Shown here in pieces: positions 1-13,225 of a stretch of 13,225 nucleotides of DNA. A program made the translations under genes and the position numbers. Each line of letters begins with the position of its first letter. Position 1 is the stretch's first letter. Location of the stretch: contig JAJYTJ010000105.1 of assembly GCA_021793115.1 (NCBI GenBank), positions 1 to 13,225 of the forward strand, given 5' to 3'. This DNA comes from Actinomycetes bacterium (GTDB lineage: Bacteria; Actinomycetota; Actinomycetes; Actinomycetales; Cellulomonadaceae). The notes under the pieces are model-generated. The model had not been told where the DNA came from. It did not search any database and saw only the letters and a list, made by a program, of their open reading frames with translations.

Positions 1-95
1 CGATGCGCTCGCGGGCGCGGGTGCGGGTGCGGGCCGGGGAGGCGGGGGGCGGAGTGGCGGGGGCCGGGGGCGGGGGTTGGAGGTGGTGGGGGGGG
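1..95 (-). other. C-rich, G-poor 3' flank of leuA; candidate Rho-dependent termination region / G-quadruplex on the opposite strand
   Basis: Read in the direction of leuA transcription, the 95 bases after the stop are about two-thirds C and under one-fifth G, with several runs of five or more C. Such C-rich, G-poor RNA is what Rho loading sites look like. The plus strand carries the matching G runs (near 43-48, 58-62, 66-70, 72-76 and 88-95), enough for a DNA G-quadruplex. No hairpin-plus-U-tract terminator and no gene can be supported here. Confidence 0.3.
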
Positions 96-1958
<1,863 letters not shown>

Positions 1959-4508
1959 TTAGAGGGCCCCGCCGCGGCGAGCAAGGAGGAGGTTGCGCCG
2001 CACGAAGGGCACCATACCCCCGCGCCGCGCCGCGCCCGCAACGCGTCCGCGGAGCGATCGGGCCGAGACGCGGGCCCACCACCTCGTCCGCGACGGCACG
2101 GCGGCACGCATGGCGCCGAGCGCCTCGTCGACGTCGAGCCAGTACGCGGCGACCTCCGCGTCGCTCGGGACGCCCGCGGCGAACACAGCGCGATCGGCCC
2201 TGCGGGCCAGGCCGTCGAGCCGCACGGCCACTGCTCCCGCCTGCTCGGGGGCGCCCGTCGCGAACGCCCGGCCCACCGCGGCGGCGCCCTCGCGCCTGGT
2301 GCCGCGTGGCCCGGGTGGTCGGCGCAGGTCGCGCGCGGCGTCCATCACCTCGTCCCAACCGCCCGCCACGCGGTGGACCGGGTCGAGGGCGCGGCGCCGC
2401 CGGCGCCGCCGTACGAGCTTGAGGCCGGCGACGGTGAGGAACGGGCCGGCGAGCACGAGCAGGCCACCGGTCCCGGCGCCCGCGTAGCCGACGACGCGCA
2501 GCCACGTCGGGACGGCGCCGGAGCCGTGCTCGTCCTGCCGCATCGACGGGCGAGCGGTGTCGGCGTCGGGTGCCTTGACGTCGGGCTCCGGCGGCGGCGG
2601 GGGCTGCACCACCTGCGGCTTGGGGTCCGAGGGGGCCGGGTCGGGGTCCTGGTTGACGGTCTTCGACGTCGGCGGCGTGGCGTCGAACGGCACCCAGCCG
2701 TAGCCGACGAAGGGCACCTCGACCCACGCCTGCACGTCCGCGCCGGTCACCTCGACGGCGCCGTCGCTCGTCGTCCGCGGCCCCGAGGCCGCCGTGCCCT
2801 GCGCGCCGGAGCCGGGGACGAAGCCGAGCACCACCCGCGCCGGCAGGCCCATCTCCCGGACCATGAGCGCCAGGGTGGCGGCGTACTGCTCGCCGTCCCC
2901 CACGATGACGCCGGCGCCGAGGAACGAGGCGATCCGGTCCGCGCCGTGCCCCGACAGCGACGGGTGCTCGCCGGACTGCCCGTCGCTGAAGTAGCCGTGG
3001 TCGACGAGCCAGGTGGCCAGCGACTGGACCACCTCGGCCGGCTTGCCCGCGTCGCGCGCGATGTCCGGCGCGAGCGTGCGGATGCGCGCCGGGACGCCCG
3101 AGAGCGCGGGCTCGGACACCGACTGCGGGCGCGCCGCGCCGAGCGCCGTCACGGACGGGGCCGGCGGCACCACGGCGTCCACCGTGTAGCTCAGTCCCTG
3201 GTGCAGACCGTCGACGAGCACCGCGGCCCCGGTCGCGTCGTTGAACCGCAGCGCGGGCTGCTCGGCCGCGTCGAGCGAGATGCGGGTCGCCTCGCCCACC
3301 GTGGGCAGCCATGGCCCGTCGAGCGCCCCGACGTCGACCCGCACGGCGGCGGCCGGTCCGGTGATCGGCGCCGGGAGCTCGTCGCCCACGCGCCGGAACT
3401 CCCCCGACGACGCCACCGTCCCGGACCCCGCCACGTTCCACACCACGCCGTCGTACCGGTCGAAGGTCGCCAGCCGGATGCGCGCGCCCTGCGGCAGGCC
3501 GGAGACGGTGAAGAGCACCGCGTCCTTCTCCTTGACGTACTGCCGGAAGGCCGCGAGCGGGCTCGGGTAGGCATCCGGGTCCCACGGTGGCGTGATCCGG
3601 TCACGCAGCACGAACCGCGACGTTCCCTGGGTCACGGCGGGACCGCCGGCGAGCCCGGCGCCGACGGCCACCGCGAGTACCACGCCGGTGGCCAGGACCC
3701 GCCGTGCACCCAGGCGCCCTGCGCGCCACGACGCCCAGCCGCCGAGCAGCACCACGAGCGCCGTGCCCTCGAGCGCCGGTGGAAGCGGCGGCGTGCGCGT
3801 CCCCAGCAGGGCGGCGAGCAGCGCCACCGCGACGGGCACGAGGGCCGCCACGGCCGCGACGCCGGGCGTCGGGGCCCGCAACGCGAGGGTCGCCGCGGCC
3901 GCCGACCCGGCGAGCGCGAGCAGCAGCGCCGCGACCAGCACCGTCCCCGCCGGGCCGATGGGCGGCTGCAGCGTGAGCACCTGCTTCCACGCGGAGGCCG
4001 CGCCGCGCGCCAGCGCGGCCGGCGTGCGCGGGCCGGGCAGCCACCCCACGAGCGTGGTGCCGCGCGCGGCGAGCGCCCCGCCGACCAGCACGTAGCCGAC
4101 GACGAGCACCGCGACGACGCCCAGGCCCGACCACCGACGCCACGCCCCGAGCACCGCGACGCCCGCGCCGAGCAGCAGCCCGCCGAGCAGCGCGGGCACG
4201 GCCGTGCCGCCGCCGTACACGGGGAGCAGCGGCGTGAGCGCGAGCGCGAGCCCGACGAGCAGGCACGCGACGTCGAGCGCCGCACGCACGCCGCGGCGCG
4301 GCCCGGCGGGCACCGGGGCGACCGCCCGGGCCACGCCCGTGCCGGGGTCGAGCCGGCGGCGCAGCAGGTCGCCGAGGGCACGCCAGGCCGCCGGCGGCGC
4401 AGCCTCCTCCGGGAGCAGCCAGCCGGCCGGCACTCCCTCGGTGCGGGGCCGGCCGTCGGAGGCACGGCGCCGCGACGCCTCCTCCTCGCGCGTGCGCGGG
4501 GCCGTCAC
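1959..4508 (-). CDS. TgpA-like multi-pass membrane protein with transglutaminase-like domain, catalytic residues apparently lost
   Basis: An 849-residue integral membrane protein. After a charged N-terminal stretch of about 72 residues come about seven membrane helices (roughly 76-96, 103-121, 128-147, 188-208, 216-236, 246-261, 270-288). An extracytoplasmic region (about 290-665) follows, containing the transglutaminase-like core, then a Pro-rich linker, an eighth helix (about 672-697) followed by an Arg-rich stop, and a cytoplasmic tail of about 150 residues resembling the DUF4129 tails of this family. The fold signature is clear: GEQYAATLALMVREMGLPARVVLGF, QAWVEV and GWVPFDATPP. However, the usual catalytic Cys is Gly539 (GDGEQYA), the usual His is Gln593 (VQAWVEV), and only Asp609 remains. 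I therefore infer a non-catalytic homologue. The GTG start overlaps the DUF58 stop as GTGA, indicating translational coupling. It probably works with the MoxR and DUF58 products at the membrane. Confidence 0.9.
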   Translation of the reverse strand: MTAPRTREEEASRRRASDGRPRTEGVPAGWLLPEEAAPPAAWRALGDLLRRRLDPGTGVARAVAPVPAGPRRGVRAALDVACLLVGLALALTPLLPVYGGGTAVPALLGGLLLGAGVAVLGAWRRWSGLGVVAVLVVGYVLVGGALAARGTTLVGWLPGPRTPAALARGAASAWKQVLTLQPPIGPAGTVLVAALLLALAGSAAAATLALRAPTPGVAAVAALVPVAVALLAALLGTRTPPLPPALEGTALVVLLGGWASWRAGRLGARRVLATGVVLAVAVGAGLAGGPAVTQGTSRFVLRDRITPPWDPDAYPSPLAAFRQYVKEKDAVLFTVSGLPQGARIRLATFDRYDGVVWNVAGSGTVASSGEFRRVGDELPAPITGPAAAVRVDVGALDGPWLPTVGEATRISLDAAEQPALRFNDATGAAVLVDGLHQGLSYTVDAVVPPAPSVTALGAARPQSVSEPALSGVPARIRTLAPDIARDAGKPAEVVQSLATWLVDHGYFSDGQSGEHPSLSGHGADRIASFLGAGVIVGDGEQYAATLALMVREMGLPARVVLGFVPGSGAQGTAASGPRTTSDGAVEVTGADVQAWVEVPFVGYGWVPFDATPPTSKTVNQDPDPAPSDPKPQVVQPPPPPEPDVKAPDADTARPSMRQDEHGSGAVPTWLRVVGYAGAGTGGLLVLAGPFLTVAGLKLVRRRRRRRALDPVHRVAGGWDEVMDAARDLRRPPGPRGTRREGAAAVGRAFATGAPEQAGAVAVRLDGLARRADRAVFAAGVPSDAEVAAYWLDVDEALGAMRAAVPSRTRWWARVSARSLRGRVAGAARRGGMVPFVRRNLLLARRGGAL
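2011..2041 (-). promoter_or_regulatory. Candidate leuA promoter inside the tgpA 3' end
   Basis: On the minus strand TATGGT (2016-2011) is a plausible -10 element of the TANNNT type, and TTGCGG (2041-2036) lies 19 bases upstream as a weak -35. A transcript would begin near 2004 and carry a leader of about 110 bases before leuA. The spacing is longer than the usual 17-18 bases and the elements lie in coding sequence, so this is only a candidate. No transcription data support it. Confidence 0.25.
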
Positions 4509-5650
4509 GGCAGCACCGCCCGCCGCAGCAGCCGGGGCAGGTCGTCGAGCGCGCCGAGCGTCGCCAGCGTGAGCAGGCCGTTGGTCCGCGCGGACGCCTG
4601 CGCCCCCGGCGCGCAGCGCACCACGAGCGTGCGCGCGCCGGACGGCACGTGCTGCGCCCCGAGCCGCAGGTCACGATCGTCGGGCACCGCGCCCGTGACG
4701 AGCACCGCCAGCGAGGCGTCCGGCGCCTCGCGCGCCACCCGCCGGCCCAGCAGGTGCACGCCCGCCCCCGCGGAGCCGGTCATGAACGCCGCGCAGTCGT
4801 CGAGCAGCACCGGGGGCGAGGCGACCCGCAGCCGGCCCGGTCCGGCGACCACCGTGACGCCCCGCTGGTCCCGGATCGCCTGGACACCGAGCGACGCGGT
4901 CACGCTGACGGCGAGCTCCAGGTCGTCCTCCCCCGCGTAGTCCGCGGGCGCGTCGGCGAGCGCGATCGCCGTCTGCGTGCGCCGGGTGTCCTCGAACTGC
5001 TTGACCATCAACGTGTCGCGGCGCGCCGTGGTGCGCCAGTGGATGTACCGCCGGTCGTCGCCCGCCACGTAGTCGCGCAACGCGTGGAAGCTGAGGTCCG
5101 TGTCGCTGCGGTCGCGCGCGGTCTGCCCCTCGAGGTCGCGCAGCACGCCCGCCGTGGCAGCGCCCAGGGCGACCACGCGGGGGTGCACGAACAGCTCGAC
5201 CGGGTCCGTCCAGCGCACGGTGCGCCGCGCCAGCCCCAACGGGTCCCCGCGCCAGGACCGCACCGGGCCGACGACGACGACGCAGCGCCGGTCGGTGGGC
5301 ACCGCGACCAGCTCGTCGTGCCGGGCGCCCGGCGCCAGCGACGGCACCGCGAGATCGGCGACGGAGCGCCCGACCGGCAGCTCGAGCCGAGACGGCAGCG
5401 ACCGGCGCCGCGCGGCGTTGCCCACGACGAGCCGGCCCACGGCGCGCTCGCCCACCGTGACCCGCCGCGTCGCGAGGTCCAACGTCACGCGGTAGCGGGC
5501 GCGACCGGCGGTCATGACGAGCGACGCGACGAGCACCCCGGCCGCCGCGGTGCCGAGCGCCCCGAGCTCGGTCCAGCCGAGCAGCCGCCCGACGAGCAGC
5601 CCGGCCGCCGCCGCGACCGCGACCGACCAGCCGAGCGGCGAGACCCTCAC
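4505..5650 (-). CDS. DUF58 domain protein (vWA-like partner of MoxR)
   Basis: A 381-residue protein with two N-terminal membrane helices (about 8-24 and 28-47) and a mainly cytoplasmic remainder. The DUF58 core is unmistakable at 187-220: SFHALRDYVAGDDRRYIHW followed by RTTARRDTLMVKQFE. A vWA-like fold normally follows this core, and its strand and helix pattern is present (TAIALADAPADYAGEDDLELAVSVTASLG), but the metal-site DxSxS motif reads DAPAD (233-237), so metal binding is doubtful. DUF58 proteins are usually encoded beside MoxR ATPases and are thought to be adaptors or clients of them; the biochemical role is not established. The start is GTG, one base after the moxR stop (TGACGTG), with no Shine-Dalgarno sequence, so translation probably depends on reinitiation after moxR. 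The stop overlaps the start of tgpA by four bases. Confidence 0.93.
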   Translation of the reverse strand: MRVSPLGWSVAVAAAAGLLVGRLLGWTELGALGTAAAGVLVASLVMTAGRARYRVTLDLATRRVTVGERAVGRLVVGNAARRRSLPSRLELPVGRSVADLAVPSLAPGARHDELVAVPTDRRCVVVVGPVRSWRGDPLGLARRTVRWTDPVELFVHPRVVALGAATAGVLRDLEGQTARDRSDTDLSFHALRDYVAGDDRRYIHWRTTARRDTLMVKQFEDTRRTQTAIALADAPADYAGEDDLELAVSVTASLGVQAIRDQRGVTVVAGPGRLRVASPPVLLDDCAAFMTGSAGAGVHLLGRRVAREAPDASLAVLVTGAVPDDRDLRLGAQHVPSGARTLVVRCAPGAQASARTNGLLTLATLGALDDLPRLLRRAVLP

Positions 5651-5651
5651 G

Positions 5652-6608
<957 letters not shown>

Positions 6609-6616
6609 CGGGGGCT

Positions 6617-6622
6617 TCCTCC
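6617..6622 (-). promoter_or_regulatory. Ribosome binding site of moxR
   Basis: On the minus strand this reads GGAGGA, continuing into AAG, 8 bases before the ATG at 6608. It is the strongest Shine-Dalgarno match at any junction in the window and fixes the moxR start inside a much longer open frame. Confidence 0.8.
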
Positions 6623-6637
6623 ACTCGTCGGACGCCG

Positions 6638-9600
6638 TCAGGGCGTCGTCACGGATAGGACATCGGACCAATCGCCCGCGCCCTTGACGTTGAGCGCCCG
6701 CACCTGCAGGCCGAACGTGCCCGCCAGGCCGACGTCGCCGAAGCGCAGCGACGTCGCGCCCGCCCCGCCCGGGACCGGTGCCGGGGCGCTGTAGGTCGCC
6801 CCGGAGTCGGGCGTCGTCCGGTACTCGTACCCGGTGATCGGGCGGTCGCTCGCAGGGGCGGCCCACGTGGCCCGGACACCACGCGCCGACAGCGCGAGCG
6901 TCACCACGGCGGGCACGCGCGGCGCGAGCGTGAGTGCCGAGCCGGTCCCGGTGCTCCACGCGGCATCGCCCGCGGCGTTGCGCTGCCGCACCTCGAGCGT
7001 GACGAGGTCGGGCGTGGCCGGCTGGTTCTTGTCGCACCACGGCGTGCTCGAGGTCTGCGACGGCGACACCGTCACCCAGGGGTCCGTCAGCAGCAGCCGG
7101 TACTGGGTCTCCAGCACCGGCGCGCCCCCGTTCGAGCCGAGCTGCACCGTCATCGTCACGCAGTCGACGTCCGGCCCGGGCGTCACGGTGACCACGGGCG
7201 TCGCCGGACGCGTGACGACGACGCCGCTGGTCACCTGCACCCAGTCGCTCGTCGCGCCCTTGGAGGAGACGGCCCGCACCGAGAAGGTGGGCGTGGAGCC
7301 GCCGGCCAGGCCGGTGATCGTCGTGCTCGTCCCGGTCACCGTGCCGTGCCCCTGGACCTCGTAGCCCGTGATCGTCGCGTCCGCCGCGCCGGCGTCGGTG
7401 GGCGCGGTCCACGTCAGCGTGACCGACCCGTTGCCGGGGTCGCGCACGTCGGCGGCGACCGACGCCGCGGCCGCCAGGCCCGTGGGCGCGCCCGGCGCGC
7501 TCCACACCTCGCCGACGACGGAACCCCAGGTCGACGCCCCGGCCTTGTTCACGGCCCGCACCTGGATCTGGTAGGCCCGCCGCTGCGCGTCGGTGATCTG
7601 GTAGGTCGTCGCCGTGCCCACATCGACAGGCGTGCCGCCGTCGACGACGACGTCGTACCGGGCGACCGCGTCGCCGTGCGCGGCGGGGCCCGTGACGGCG
7701 GGCCAGGTGACGTCGATGGTGTTGCCCGTCAGGGCGCCCTGACGCCGGGTGGCGTCGGGCACGGGCGCGTCCGGGACGCCGGCCGGCACCTCGGAGGCGC
7801 TGTCCGACCACCCCGACGGGTCCGGCGCCTTGTTCGAGGCCCGCACGCGCACGGTGTACCGCGTGCCGTTGGTCAGGCCGGTGAACGTGTGCGAGGTCGA
7901 CGCCTCGGTGACGCTGACCACGCCGGCCGACGAGCCGGTGAGCTCGAGCGTGTAGCTCGTCACGGGCGAGCCGGTCTGCGGCGGCGCGGTCCACGTCGCG
8001 GTGAGCGTGCCGTCGCCGAACGTCAGGGCGAGGTTGGTCGGCGGGTCGGGCACCGCGTCGGGCCGCGCGGGCGCGGACGGCGCGGACACCGGCGACCAGC
8101 CGACCGCGTTGTGCGCCTCGAGCGAGAACGTGTACTCGGTGTCGTTCGTCAGGCCGGTGACCGTGCAGACCGTGCTCGGGCACATCGTGACGAGCATGCC
8201 CGGCATGGCGGTGACGCGGTAGGAGTCGATCGGCTGCCCCCGACTGTCGGGAGCGGTCCACGACAGTGCCACCGCGCGGTCGCGGACCGCGTCTACCCGC
8301 GGCGGCGACGGCGCGGCCGGCGGCCCGCTCACCACGAGCACCACCTCGCCCTCGACGTCGCGGTCCGGGTCGCCCGTGACGTCGCGGACGCGGAACGTCG
8401 TCACCATCTCGCCGACGAAGTCGGCCGCCGGGTGCAGCACCACGGTGCCGCCCGTGCCGAGCGACGCCGTCCCGGCGCCGGGCGTCTGCACGCTGACACC
8501 GACGACGGTCAGGGGCGAGTCCGGGAAGGGGTCATACGCCCCGGCCAGCACGTCGACGCTGCGGTCCTGCCCCTGCACGCCGTCCGTCAGCCGCTGGTCG
8601 ACGACCTTGGCGCGCTGGCGCGTGCTCGCGATGACGGCGAGGTCGACCGACACGTCGAGCACGCCCGCGCGCCCGTAGCCGATGGCCAGGTCGAGCGTCC
8701 CCGTGGTGCCCTTGGGCGTGGCGGCCCCGGCCGAGACCGAGAGCACCGACCCGCGCAGCGGCGCGACGAACCCGGCCGGCACCGCGGACGTGATGCGGAA
8801 CGTGTCGTCGCCGGGCTGTGCGGGGCGCCCGTCGGGGCCGGTGAGGAACGTCAGCAGGTCGACCGCCACCGGGGCCTCGCCCGGTGCGACGCGGATCTGC
8901 GACGGCGTGAACGTCGGCGGGTGGTCGTCCACGGCGATGACCGTGATGGGGATGGTGAGCAGGGACGTGCGGGCGAGCGGGTCCCCCGGGCCGGTGGCGT
9001 CGGTGACGGGCACGGTTACCGAGGCCGGGCCCGCGTACCCGGCGGCGGACGTGAACTGCAGCGTCTTCGCGTCCTTGACCAGTGACGATCCGTCCGAGCG
9101 CGTCGCGGAGACGCCCGCCGGGTCGGCGATCGAGGGCGACCGCCCCGGGGCCACCTGGACGTGCTCGTCGAGCGGGATCACCAGCTGCTCGCCCGAGGCC
9201 ACCGTGAGGTCGGGTGCGTCCCGGCGCAGCACGGGCGGGAAGTTGCCGAGCGCGGGCACGGTGATGAAGGCGTAGGCGAACGCCGAGGGCTCGCGCGTGT
9301 TGGTGAGCAGGAAGGGCAGCGTCTGGGCGTGGTCGGTGAGCGTGACCACCGCGGTCCGGTCTGCGGCCACGTGGGCCACGTCCGCCGTCACGTCCGGCAC
9401 GGACACCGCCAGGTCGCTCATCGGCCCGCTGGGGTTCTGGGCGGTGGCCAGCACGTCCACCGCCACCTCGGTCTTGCCGAACGTGTCGGCCGCAGGGACC
9501 ACCACGTCCTTGGCCACGGGCGGCAGCACGGGCGCGTCCGCCCGCACGGTGACGGTGAGGATCGCGCTGTCGCGACCGCCGCGCGCGTTCGTGGCCGTGT

Positions 9601-12600
9601 AGACCACCTGCACCGTGCCGGGAGTCTGCGGCGCGGTGACCGAGACGCGCCCGGTCGTCACGTCCGCCGTTGCCTGGACGCCGGCGGGTACCTGCAGCAC
9701 CGGGTCGAGCGACAGCGTCCCGCCCGACGAGTCGACGTCGTTGGCCAGCACCCGCACCTGCACCAGCTCGCCCGGGCGCACGGTTACCGCGTCGTCGCGC
9801 GCCACCACGGACGCGGCCGTCGTCGGGCGCGGCGCGATGCCGACCCGCACGGTGGCGACCGCGCGCCGCCCGGTCCAGTCCTCGACCGCGTACGTGAAGG
9901 TGTCCGTGCCGGACTCGTCGCCGAACGCCTGGTAGCTCAGCGAGTCGGTGCCTGCGGTGACCACGCCCTTGGTGGGTGCCGAGGCCAGGCCGAGGAGCGT
10001 CACGCCGTCGCCGTCGGCGTCGATCCCGACGAGCGGGACGTCGATCCGCACGGTGTCGCCGGCGAAGACGCGCGCGGTCAGGTCGCGCGGGCGCGGCGGC
10101 GGCTTGGAGTCGGCCGACGAGGCGTGGACGTGCACCGTGAGCGTGGCCGCCGTGGTGTTGCCCGCGCTGTCCGAGACGGCGAACGTCGCGTGGACCGTCA
10201 TGGGCGTCTGGGGCGCCTGGTACCGCAGCACGCTGCCGGAGACGAAGAGCAGGCCCTGCCCGGCGGCCAGCGGCTGCGGCAGCTCACGGTCGAGCGTGAG
10301 CGGGTCGCCGTCGGGGTCGTACGCCGTGTCCAGCACCGGCACGGTGACCACGCCCCCGGTGCGCACGGAGGCGTCGACGTTCTCGACGACGGGTGCCTGC
10401 GACGAGCCCGCGGCGGGCACCGGCAGCACGACGATCTCGCCGGTCGCGCTCGCGGTGCCGTTCGACACCGTGTAGGAGAGCGACACCGGACCGTCGGGCG
10501 CGCGGTCGGCGGAGATCTGCACCAGGTGGTGGTCGAGCACGGCCGCCCGCAGCCCGGCGCCGTCCGGCACGTCGACCGACTGCAGCACCAGGACGCCGCC
10601 GTTCGGGTCCTGGTCGTTGGCCAACGGGTCGATTGTCACCTGCCCGCCGGCGGGCAGCAGCGCGCGGTCCCGGACCGCGACCGGTGGCGCCGCCTGGTCG
10701 GGCCACGCCAGCACGTCCACGCGCGCCAGGCCGGCGGCCTGCTGCGGCGGCGCGGTGACGGTGAACGGCACGTAGTACGTGCCGGGCCGCGGCGCTGTGA
10801 CCGTGAACGTCCCGGCCAGCAGGTCGGTGCTGATCGTCGCGCCCACCACGTCGTCCACGCCGGCGAGCGCCGCGGGCTGGGCCGACCCGCTGCGCACCGC
10901 GTCGAGCGGGTGGACCGTGACCGGCTGGTCCACGTACGTGGTGACGAGCACGGGGTCGATGTGGGGCGGCACCGAACCCTCGGGCCGCACGTCGACCAGC
11001 ACGTCGCCCCGCGCGGTGTCGGTGCCGTCGGAGACCGTCACCGAGATGCGCGTCTGGCCGAGCGTGCCGCCGTCCGCCTGGAAGGTCAGCGTCCCGTCCT
11101 GCCGCGCGCGGACGGTGCCGGCGGCGGGGTCCGCGGTCGCGCCGACGAGCTGGAGGTCGTCGCCGTCGGGGTCGACGAAGCTCGACAGCACGTCCAGGCT
11201 CACGCGGCCGCCCTGGTCCACCGTGGCGCTGGGCACCCGGACCTGCCGCGGCGCGCCGTTGGCGGCCCCACCGGCCACGCGCAGCGTCAGCGTGGCGGTC
11301 GAGGGCGGCGTGGTGCCGCGCCCGTCCGTCACGGTGTACGTCACCTGCGCCGAGCCGTGCGCCCCCGGGGCGACGCGCACCTGCAGCGCGCGGCCGCCGT
11401 ACACGCGTTCCAGCACGCCGAACGACGGGGGCAGCTGGTCGAACTCGGAGATCGCGAGGATGCCGCAGTCCGACGTCGTGTCGTTGTCGAGCACCGGAAG
11501 CACGGTGGTGCGGCCCGGCCGCACGCCGAACTCGTCGTCCACCGCCTGGGGCGCGCCCGAGTCGTGCCCGCACTCGGCCACCAGGTCCTTGGTCAGCGTG
11601 CCCTGCGTCTGCCGCGTGCCCGGCTCGGGCTGCGGCTGGGGAGCCACCTGCTCCCAGTCCGGCACCCGCAGGTTGCTGTCCTTGGCGGGCAGCCACAGCC
11701 GGCCGGCCGCGGTGTCGTTGAGCACCACCATCGAGCGGTTGACCCGGAACACGAGCGTTCCGCCCGAGCCGACGTCGGCCAGGTCACGGCGCACGTCGCC
11801 GTGCCCGCACGACTGCAGGGACGAGCCCGTGGGCGTGGCCCAGGCGCCGTATGCGCAGCCCGCGACGCGGACGGGGCGCGCCGGCGCGCCGGCGCCGCCG
11901 GAGCGATGGCTGACGATCGCGCCGCCCCGCAGCGGCACCTCGAGCAGCGCCGTCCGGCTCGCGACGAGCACCGTCGCGGCCGCGGGGCCCGGCTGCTGCA
12001 GCACGAGCCCCTGGCCGGGCAGCGTCACGGTGCCGTGCCGGGTTCGCAGCTGGTTGCCCGAGAGCACCACCGGGTCGTCGCCCACGGCGGTCAGCTGGTC
12101 GACCGGCCCGGCCCCGACCGTGCCGTCCGGCCGCTGCCCGGCCGGGGTCAGTCGGGTCACGGTCCCGTCGGTCGCCGCGACCGCCAGCGCGGTGCCCGTC
12201 GTGGCGGCCACCACCTGCCCGCCCGGGCCGAGCGCGAGGTCGGCCGGGTCCTGCGCGAGGTGCAGCCCGGACAGCGCGCCGATCGGGCGCACCCACACGT
12301 TCCCGTCCTTGTCGCCGAACGCGACCGTGCCGCCGCCGAGGGACGTGCTCACGCCGGCGGCCGCCACGTCGGCGACCGTCGCGACGGTCGCCGGGTCCAC
12401 CACGGCCACCGTGGAGGCGCCGACGAGCAGCACGTCGGAGCCGTCCTGCAGCACGTCGAAGCGCGCGGAGTCCGCGGCGAGCCCGGCGTTGAGCTCTTCG
12501 ACGGGCACGTTGTACCGGCCGAGCATGCCCCGGTCGGTCGAGGTGACCCAGACCGCGCCGTCGTCGAGGTTGAGCCGGGCCAGCGGGAACCCGCGGTCCA

Positions 12601-12682
12601 GCGCCGCGAGCGTCGCGACCAGCACCGGGATGGTCACCACGGCGGCGGCCGTGGTGAGGCGGCGGCGCGGCAGCCGGATCAT
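6638..12682 (-). CDS. Giant membrane-anchored or secreted protein with propeller-like region, Ig/cadherin-like repeats and six FN3 domains
   Basis: A 2014-residue protein. A basic N-terminus (MIRLPRRRL) precedes one hydrophobic segment (about 10-28), either an uncleaved anchor or a signal peptide, placing the rest outside the cell. Residues about 40-360 contain short repeated strand motifs (DDGAVWVTSTDRG, KDGNVWVRP, VNRSMVVLND, AAGRLWLP) suggesting a beta-propeller. After a Pro/Gln linker come about eleven Ig/cadherin-like repeats of 90-105 residues, then six FN3 domains to the C-terminus. There are only eight cysteines, arranged as plausible pairs. Related Ig-like giants are known next to MoxR/DUF58/transglutaminase genes in Actinobacteria, but their function is unknown; adhesion, envelope scaffolding or ligand sensing are possibilities. 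The ATG at 12682 forms an ATGA overlap with the upstream stop; a GTG three codons earlier (12691) is the alternative, and neither has a good Shine-Dalgarno. It is encoded immediately before moxR. Confidence 0.92.
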   Translation of the reverse strand: MIRLPRRRLTTAAAVVTIPVLVATLAALDRGFPLARLNLDDGAVWVTSTDRGMLGRYNVPVEELNAGLAADSARFDVLQDGSDVLLVGASTVAVVDPATVATVADVAAAGVSTSLGGGTVAFGDKDGNVWVRPIGALSGLHLAQDPADLALGPGGQVVAATTGTALAVAATDGTVTRLTPAGQRPDGTVGAGPVDQLTAVGDDPVVLSGNQLRTRHGTVTLPGQGLVLQQPGPAAATVLVASRTALLEVPLRGGAIVSHRSGGAGAPARPVRVAGCAYGAWATPTGSSLQSCGHGDVRRDLADVGSGGTLVFRVNRSMVVLNDTAAGRLWLPAKDSNLRVPDWEQVAPQPQPEPGTRQTQGTLTKDLVAECGHDSGAPQAVDDEFGVRPGRTTVLPVLDNDTTSDCGILAISEFDQLPPSFGVLERVYGGRALQVRVAPGAHGSAQVTYTVTDGRGTTPPSTATLTLRVAGGAANGAPRQVRVPSATVDQGGRVSLDVLSSFVDPDGDDLQLVGATADPAAGTVRARQDGTLTFQADGGTLGQTRISVTVSDGTDTARGDVLVDVRPEGSVPPHIDPVLVTTYVDQPVTVHPLDAVRSGSAQPAALAGVDDVVGATISTDLLAGTFTVTAPRPGTYYVPFTVTAPPQQAAGLARVDVLAWPDQAAPPVAVRDRALLPAGGQVTIDPLANDQDPNGGVLVLQSVDVPDGAGLRAAVLDHHLVQISADRAPDGPVSLSYTVSNGTASATGEIVVLPVPAAGSSQAPVVENVDASVRTGGVVTVPVLDTAYDPDGDPLTLDRELPQPLAAGQGLLFVSGSVLRYQAPQTPMTVHATFAVSDSAGNTTAATLTVHVHASSADSKPPPRPRDLTARVFAGDTVRIDVPLVGIDADGDGVTLLGLASAPTKGVVTAGTDSLSYQAFGDESGTDTFTYAVEDWTGRRAVATVRVGIAPRPTTAASVVARDDAVTVRPGELVQVRVLANDVDSSGGTLSLDPVLQVPAGVQATADVTTGRVSVTAPQTPGTVQVVYTATNARGGRDSAILTVTVRADAPVLPPVAKDVVVPAADTFGKTEVAVDVLATAQNPSGPMSDLAVSVPDVTADVAHVAADRTAVVTLTDHAQTLPFLLTNTREPSAFAYAFITVPALGNFPPVLRRDAPDLTVASGEQLVIPLDEHVQVAPGRSPSIADPAGVSATRSDGSSLVKDAKTLQFTSAAGYAGPASVTVPVTDATGPGDPLARTSLLTIPITVIAVDDHPPTFTPSQIRVAPGEAPVAVDLLTFLTGPDGRPAQPGDDTFRITSAVPAGFVAPLRGSVLSVSAGAATPKGTTGTLDLAIGYGRAGVLDVSVDLAVIASTRQRAKVVDQRLTDGVQGQDRSVDVLAGAYDPFPDSPLTVVGVSVQTPGAGTASLGTGGTVVLHPAADFVGEMVTTFRVRDVTGDPDRDVEGEVVLVVSGPPAAPSPPRVDAVRDRAVALSWTAPDSRGQPIDSYRVTAMPGMLVTMCPSTVCTVTGLTNDTEYTFSLEAHNAVGWSPVSAPSAPARPDAVPDPPTNLALTFGDGTLTATWTAPPQTGSPVTSYTLELTGSSAGVVSVTEASTSHTFTGLTNGTRYTVRVRASNKAPDPSGWSDSASEVPAGVPDAPVPDATRRQGALTGNTIDVTWPAVTGPAAHGDAVARYDVVVDGGTPVDVGTATTYQITDAQRRAYQIQVRAVNKAGASTWGSVVGEVWSAPGAPTGLAAAASVAADVRDPGNGSVTLTWTAPTDAGAADATITGYEVQGHGTVTGTSTTITGLAGGSTPTFSVRAVSSKGATSDWVQVTSGVVVTRPATPVVTVTPGPDVDCVTMTVQLGSNGGAPVLETQYRLLLTDPWVTVSPSQTSSTPWCDKNQPATPDLVTLEVRQRNAAGDAAWSTGTGSALTLAPRVPAVVTLALSARGVRATWAAPASDRPITGYEYRTTPDSGATYSAPAPVPGGAGATSLRFGDVGLAGTFGLQVRALNVKGAGDWSDVLSVTTP
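6641..8318 (-). other. Six tandem fibronectin type III domains at the C-terminus of the giant protein
   Basis: Approximate domain spans are 8055-8318, 7776-8054, 7501-7775, 7206-7500, 6921-7205 and 6641-6920, about 93 residues each. Typical FN3 signatures are visible: SWTAP, TATWTAPP and LTWTAP for strand B/C, ITGYE and VTSYTLEL for strand C, and TGLTNGTRYTVRVRASN for the F-G region. Domain 1 carries a CPSTVC pair and domain 5 a Cys pair 42 residues apart. Domains 3 and 5 are the most diverged. Confidence 0.8.
8319..11553 (-). other. Array of about eleven Ig/cadherin-like protein repeats inside the giant gene
   Basis: The encoded repeats are about 98 residues each and highly diverged, so there is no tandem repeat at DNA level. 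Each opens with a short Pro-containing joint (PPVA, APRQV, PPTF), then a VxxG turn, a Val-Leu strand, often an acidic loop, and ends in a YTVTD- or FAVSD-like strand. The acidic loop is best preserved as DPDGD (repeats 2 and 5) and DADGD (repeat 6), and partly kept as NDQDPNGG (repeat 4) and NDVDSSGG (repeat 7). These resemble the calcium-associated loops of cadherin-like bacterial domains. Boundaries are approximate. Confidence 0.7.
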
Positions 12683-13225
12683 CCGGCGCACCCGCGGGCG
12701 GCGTCCGACGAGACCCGGCCGTCACCCCGCACGAGCAGCACCTGGATGCAGACCTGGCCGGGTGCGTGCGCCGCGGGGACCGTCGCGGTCGGCTCCGCCA
12801 CGAGCGTGAGCGGCTCCTCGCCGGTCGCCGTGACGACGCCCCACTGGTAGCGGTCGCCGTCCTGCGGCGCCGGGTCGGTCCAGGTGAAGCGCACGGAGCC
12901 GTCCGCGGCGCGCGTGCCCGCCAGCGAGGTGACGGCCGGGACGGCCACGGCCGGGGGCGCGGTGCGCTGCACCTGGATCCCCGGGTCCTGGGGGTCCGCC
13001 GGGGACTGGTGCCAGAACGCCGCGACGAGCCCCACGGCCGCCGCGACCAGCACGAGCGCCGCGGCACCGGTGCCGGCCCGCCGCGCCGGCGACGTCCTGG
13101 GTGGCGGCTGCGGACCGTCGACCGCGTCGTCCGGGACCGCGGGGACGGCCTCGTCGGGCGCCGGGGCGACCGCGAGCGGCCCGCGCGGGCGGGTGGGCCC
13201 CGGCTCGCCGGCGCCGGCCGGCGCG
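12679..13225 (-). CDS. C-terminal part of a membrane protein with FN3-like extracellular domain (possibly a Ser/Thr kinase tail), 5' end outside window
   Basis: The frame is open to the window edge and gives 181 residues before the stop. Visible in order: a Pro/Ala-rich linker of about 45 residues with acidic patches (PAPDEAVPAVPDDAVDG), an Arg pair, a membrane helix (about 51-71), and an outer domain of about 100 residues with FN3-like strands (SVRFTWTDP, YQWGVV) and two cysteines near the end (GQVCIQ and RGCAG). Positive charge before the helix suggests a cytoplasmic N-terminus and an external C-terminus. This architecture and the neighbourhood fit the tail of a transmembrane Ser/Thr protein kinase, but no kinase sequence is in the window, so that is inference. 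The stop overlaps the next gene's ATG as ATGA. An internal GTG at 13053 would start inside the membrane helix and is not a credible start. Confidence 0.75.
   Translation of the reverse strand, partial: APAGAGEPGPTRPRGPLAVAPAPDEAVPAVPDDAVDGPQPPPRTSPARRAGTGAAALVLVAAAVGLVAAFWHQSPADPQDPGIQVQRTAPPAVAVPAVTSLAGTRAADGSVRFTWTDPAPQDGDRYQWGVVTATGEEPLTLVAEPTATVPAAHAPGQVCIQVLLVRGDGRVSSDAARGCAG

Follow-up and report, generated by a model that had tools for sequence, protein, structure and literature searches.

Loss of the catalytic cysteine in a TgpA-type protein encoded alongside a giant Ig/FN3 surface protein in Cellulomonadaceae

What does a TgpA-type protein do once its transglutaminase-like (TG) domain has no cysteine left? 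The question is raised by the last gene of an operon on contig JAJYTJ010000105.1 (assembly GCA_021793115.1) of an actinomycete of the Cellulomonadaceae, of which positions 1 to 13,225 were analysed (the window). An initial annotation, made from the sequence alone, had noted Gly539 and Gln593 at the places of the catalytic Cys and His, with only Asp609 remaining, and had proposed selected loss rather than decay, with a possible non-catalytic role in binding peptides or the giant Ig/FN3 protein. Translation of the open reading frame (ORF) placed all three residues as claimed, with the motifs GDGEQYA, DVQAWVEV and FDATPP starting at residues 537, 591 and 608. The features of the protein are listed below, with counts taken from 141 aligned Cys-less domains and 27 canonical TgpA domains (Cys-His-Glu/Asp).

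1959..4508, minus strand: Cys-less TgpA-type protein of 849 amino acids (ORF; last gene of the operon)
3162..4253, minus strand: TgpA_N match, residues 86-449, covering the membrane helices and the first part of the outer domain (29.6 bits; its cut-off is 30)
2679..3077, minus strand: Transglut_core domain without Cys, residues 478-610 (Pfam match)
2946..2948, minus strand: His521, invariant in Cys-less domains (141/141, against 7/27 canonical)
2934..2936, minus strand: Arg525, in 137/141 Cys-less domains against 2/27 canonical
2892..2894, minus strand: Gly539, nucleophile position (Cys in 27/27 canonical domains)
2889..2891, minus strand: Glu540, in 140/141 Cys-less domains against 11/27 canonical
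2730..2732, minus strand: Gln593, His position (His in 27/27 canonical domains)
2682..2684, minus strand: Asp609, third triad position (Glu in 20 and Asp in 7 of the 27 canonical domains)
2451..2507, minus strand: helix (residues 668-686) predicted to follow the outer domain and likely to span the membrane (fold model and hydropathy)
2049..2447, minus strand: C-terminal part, residues 688-820, helical in the fold model and presumably intracellular

The Transglut_core match reaches 62.2 bits (cut-off 23), and TgpA_N, just below its cut-off here, scores 58 and 52 bits in the relatives P0122 and P0242. Hydropathy peaks at residues 676-699 overlap the predicted helix and extend just downstream of it. 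In a profile alignment built from 17 Cys-less rows, the motifs GFCAHYA, AHAWVE and SVDPT of Pseudomonas aeruginosa TgpA (PDB 6g49) align opposite the three window sites, and we took the aligned Cys, His and Asp as the catalytic triad because they match the family motif and because the triad is described as conserved in PMC3507681. Translation and alignment thus bore out the absence of both catalytic residues: the window protein reads Gly-Gln-Asp, the domain holds no other Cys that could take over in the active site, and the sole Cys of the whole protein is residue 82, in the membrane region. The protein has the fold of the TgpA outer domain, with protein 4.2 (EPB42) among the fold matches, and according to the fold model a core helix (539-552) begins at residue 539, residue 593 lies on a strand (592-600) and residue 609 just past another (604-608), which are the positions expected for a papain-like active site. 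A search of PDB with the single window sequence gave a chance match only, and NCBIfam named no family for the protein. Judged from its sequence, loss of cysteine catalysis in the window TgpA is near certain.

The Cys-less state is shared widely. Three protein searches were centred on the window protein, a Bifidobacterium-type relative and a Microbacterium-type relative, and the best 120 of 1182, 631 and 1744 matches, respectively, were read; their named sources were mostly Cellulomonas, Bifidobacterium and Microbacterium. Cys occupied the nucleophile position in none of 359 homologues (one of the 360 rows, P0207, was gapped there), and in 358/360 rows the domain was wholly without Cys. The nucleophile position held Gly 109, Asp 8, Ser 2 and Ala 1 in the window-centred set, Ser 119 plus one gap in the Bifidobacterium-type set and Asp 120 in the Microbacterium-type set, while the commonest residues were Gln (75), Thr (85) and His (119) at the His position, and Asp (118), Tyr (109) and Asn/Asp (66/49) at the acid position. 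Gly at position 539 is therefore typical of the Cellulomonas set and not of the other two, and Gln593, although the commonest residue in its own set, is one of several there. Close relatives keeping both Cys and His, named in the initial annotation as a sign of local mutation, did not turn up. The substitute at the nucleophile site is lineage-typical (Gly, Ser or Asp).

Draws of genomes widened the survey, with residues read in a minority of the profile matches. In the Actinomycetota draw, the first profile matched 218/296 genomes, and the 30 loci returned comprised 14 without Cys and 16 with Cys-His-Glu/Asp; in the draw of 396 genomes from the order, Cys was absent from the 30 best loci. Across 120 non-redundant domains, made up of 27 named loci, 13 from the phylum draw and 80 from the order draw (the latter hand-picked from the listed upper part of the matches, E about 1e-127 to 1e-94; L173 was dropped as it is the same place as L100), the nucleophile position held Asp 44, Gly 30, Glu 20, Ser 14, Ala 12 and Cys 0. 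Asp is kept at the acid position in 66 and His at its position in 34 of these 120 loci, so that the statement that only the Asp remains holds for the window protein and not for the clade. A 16S probe target, which we take to be a Bifidobacterium marker, flagged 19/396 order genomes, of which 16 have a Cys-less TgpA, one a canonical match only and two none. Two of the 16 (G368 and G666, 3.9-4.0 Mb) may not be Bifidobacterium; 13 of the remaining 14 read S-T-Y, S-Q-Y or S-A-Y at the old triad positions, and one reads G-D-R. Loss of the Cys is thus not a local mutation, and is common to a large actinobacterial branch that includes gut Bifidobacterium. A canonical TgpA coexists with the Cys-less one in 7/7 genomes searched whole (six Cellulomonas, one Serinibacter).

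When a tree was computed with the triad columns removed, the 49 Cys-less rows in the sample formed one clade (89/97; 88% of bootstraps) and the 27 canonical rows another (100/99), with two Ser-type rows standing apart. A larger, quick tree of 170 rows agreed (86 and 99), with several long branches flagged, some of them canonical. Its group labels were set with the residues known, so that the count of 0/141 Cys is partly by construction, which does not apply to the clades; L246 and L248 (listed there as L075 and L081) and L257 (domain cut) stand outside the 141. Domain diversity is equal in the two groups (mean identity 0.44), and despite this the canonical rows all hold Cys and His. On the 170-row tree the His and acid positions drift, with 44 and 27 changes. 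An apparent tie between Asp539 and His593 (His593 in 34/61 Asp539 rows and 2/80 others) was rejected, since it failed an independent-pairs test (5 pairs on well supported branches, median p 1).

Within the listed genome matches no internal stops were found. Compared with its two closest relatives, the window gene shows a ratio of non-synonymous to synonymous substitution rates (dN/dS) of 0.13-0.18 in the domain and 0.25-0.27 elsewhere, and three farther pairs gave 0.35-0.52 versus 0.56-0.65; absolute values are rough, as third positions are GC-rich. The open frames, the lineage-typical substitutes, the invariant flanks of the old site and the low domain dN/dS together argue for loss under selection and not decay, as had been proposed.

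The TgpA gene is linked to that of a giant surface protein. The other genes of the window operon are as follows.

4505..5650, minus strand: DUF58 protein (domain match)
5652..6608, minus strand: MoxR-type AAA+ ATPase (domain match)
6638..12691, minus strand: giant Ig (Big_9)/FN3 surface protein of 2017 amino acids (ORF and domain matches)
11693..12457, minus strand: beta-propeller predicted in the giant protein (residues 79-333)
12679..13225, minus strand: Ser/Thr kinase gene, 3' end only, cut by the window edge

The order is thus kinase, giant Ig/FN3, MoxR, DUF58 and TgpA, with start/stop overlaps at two junctions: the GTG start of TgpA overlaps the DUF58 stop (GTGA), and an alternative ATG start of the giant gene, at 12682, overlaps the stop upstream (ATGA). 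Among loci fetched with their flanks, a giant or FN3-type protein lies upstream of 138 TG domains, none of which has Cys; a further 15 domains have MoxR and no giant in view upstream, 12 with Cys and 3 without (L021, L184 and L247). The N-terminal profile of the giant protein alone (1e-10) matched 13/296 phylum and 243/396 order genomes, and the neighbours of divergent giant genes included 21 linked TG domains (4 + 17), again all without Cys. For these giant-first loci, 24 genomes were chosen mostly for a weak TG match alongside the giant match; L246 and L254 had already been sampled, L247 was also reached by this route, and three of the 20 loci in the larger set (L256, L259 and L268) end before a TG gene. 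This gene linkage supports a tie of the TgpA domain to the giant Ig/FN3 protein.

The arrangement resembles a published one. The Bifidobacterium PFNA operon (pkb2-fn3-aaa-atp-duf58-tgm; PMC6803598, PMC8430577, PMC10688814, PMC12607495) is described as confined to that genus, and its TGM has been presumed to be a cysteine protease. The window operon has the identical five-gene order, with a Ser/Thr kinase (3' end) upstream of the giant FN3, MoxR, DUF58 and TGM genes, and its giant protein shares a homologous N-terminus with that of a Bifidobacterium-type locus (27% identity over 450 positions). The Bifidobacterium TGM is likewise Cys-less. As the arrangement also occurs in Cellulomonas, Serinibacter and many other genomes of the order, and since the giant N-terminal profile matches so many of these, the restriction to Bifidobacterium does not fit, and both printed claims conflict with the data here. 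A literature search of one library, covering its listings and passages of selected papers, found no statement that the PFNA TGM or the TgpA branch of the window lacks the triad. The MoxR-DUF58-transglutaminase trio has been called frequent (PMC6803598), and the mycobacterial moxR operon has been likened to PFNA (PMC12067865). Among the closest known systems, P. aeruginosa TgpA (PA2873; PDB 6g49, 6g4h) has the triad and shows transglutaminase activity in vitro (PMC3507681), whereas the window protein lacks Cys and His and is encoded with a giant Ig/FN3 gene.

Inactive proteins with a transglutaminase or papain fold are known in eukaryotes (EPB42/protein 4.2, menin, Rad4 and CC2D2A; PMC10318531). 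Like the window TgpA, they have lost catalytic residues and kept the fold, and the roles described for them are in scaffolding and binding. They belong to another lineage and architecture, with no TgpA membrane part and no MoxR operon.

On balance we favour the reading that the window TgpA belongs to an ancient branch, widespread in the order, that has abandoned cysteine chemistry and serves as a non-catalytic (pseudoenzyme) subunit docking or sensing the giant protein. The fold and the cleft flanks are conserved while the His and acid positions drift, and Cys is absent from the sampled giant-linked domains; the docking or sensing role is probable, by gene linkage and by analogy with the known transglutaminase-fold pseudoenzymes. 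The dead TG domain, displayed on the cell exterior by the membrane protein, would dock or sense the giant surface protein or, alternatively, a ligand such as a peptide or wall component, and the inner helical tail would couple the outer state to DUF58 and the MoxR ATPase. For B. longum, phosphorylation of MoxR by the operon kinase has been reported (PMC8430577). The covalent work would fall to active TgpA paralogues, encoded in MoxR-DUF58 operons that lack a giant, and the holding to the Cys-less branch.

Several points weigh against this account. Cys-less queries bias best-match lists toward Cys-less rows; the giant-first loci relieve this bias but are few, and the 12 Cys-bearing loci without a giant had been fetched as known canonical. 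For four Cys-less domains no giant is visible upstream. Two of them sit at sequence ends, L021 at that of its contig and the second domain of L167 at the limit of the fetched region; of the other two, L184 comes from a genome with a giant elsewhere, and L247 has none directly upstream. A kinase motif was detected upstream in only 62 of the 138 giant-linked loci, under a crude rule based on motif and distance, and solely downstream in several, which makes the kinase the least constant operon member, and the giant and TgpA may only share regulation.

The strongest competitor, which we regard as possible and clearly less probable, is that the domain is a structural spacer whose site drifted after the loss, with the membrane part and inner tail being what matters to MoxR-DUF58. 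The drift of the His and acid positions would suit it, as would the fold match to protein 4.2, listed in print as inactive. However, the comparison with the two closest relatives shows stronger constraint on the TG domain than on the remainder of the gene, and near-invariant residues absent from canonical rows flank the old site.

It is unlikely that a non-cysteine catalytic site has arisen, for instance from His521, Arg525, Asp538 and Glu540, or from Asp539, His593 and Asp/Asn609 in the branch having them. The near-complete conservation of His521 and Glu540 could be read in its favour, as could the residues of the Microbacterium-centred set. The old positions, though, read G-Q-D, S-T-Y, A-T-F, E-I-F and others within one clade and operon type, so that a shared chemistry cannot use them. 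That the Microbacterium-type branch swapped Cys for Asp, giving a putative Asp-His-Asp/Asn triad and a switched-nucleophile enzyme, with catalysis then lost in the other branches, is a long shot. The idea that the gene of this strain was hit by a local mutation or is decaying as a pseudogene, for which the missing residues speak and nothing more, is refuted by the same state in sampled relatives, the open frames and purifying selection among close relatives.

Some loci differ in detail. L247, from Cellulomonas avistercoris, encodes a TgpA (9085-11742, minus strand) that reads A-H-E (GYAEQHA), with Cys lost and His and acid kept. L246 and L248, from large genomes (about 7 Mb), represent a second Cys-less type with Ser at the Cys site and, upstream of MoxR, an FN3-type protein of shorter length (its FN3 match falls below the cut-off in L246); the L246 TgpA also carries DUF4129. 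At L167 a second Cys-less TG domain (17792-19585, minus strand) lies upstream of the giant gene, at the border of the fetched sequence, and L242 has a giant gene and no TG gene within the fetched 16.5 kb. At least two giant-type frames precede MoxR in L164, L170, L174, L178, L183, L188, L189, L193, L213 and L230, which suggests that paralogues have expanded or that, in L174, one gene has been split. All of 16 diverse giants share Cys279 and Cys295 in the propeller region, a pair that possibly forms a disulfide.

In P0127, P0128 and P0129 (Bifidobacterium-like) the DUF58 and TG domains share one polypeptide (1214-1221 amino acids), a hint that the two act together. A parallel loss at the metal site of the partner DUF58 was looked for, with no informative difference; before the LR-Y motif, DUF58 proteins from Cys-less operons have a short stretch of residues (e.g. 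SFH) where 6/7 from canonical operons show a gap. A Ser/Thr kinase precedes the operon in the window and in most named Cellulomonas loci, with its motif before the giant in 23/26 loci L001-L026; over 149 positions the kinase end in the window matches the C-terminus of the L001 kinase at 82% identity. The gene that immediately follows the operon is leuA (2-isopropylmalate synthase, 96-1892, minus strand), and Rfam and tRNA scans of the window found nothing.

The PFNA-type gene set also occurs in Cellulomonas and other genera that are mostly from soil and other environments, and its basic role should therefore be a general one at the cell surface. Inactive transglutaminase folds were already known in eukaryotes, and here a Cys-less TgpA branch is found in bacterial operons. 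The finding changes which experiments are fitting, namely those on binding and assembly and not on cross-linking, and the presence of an active and a dead TgpA in one genome offers a natural contrast for asking what the MoxR-DUF58-TgpA system does.
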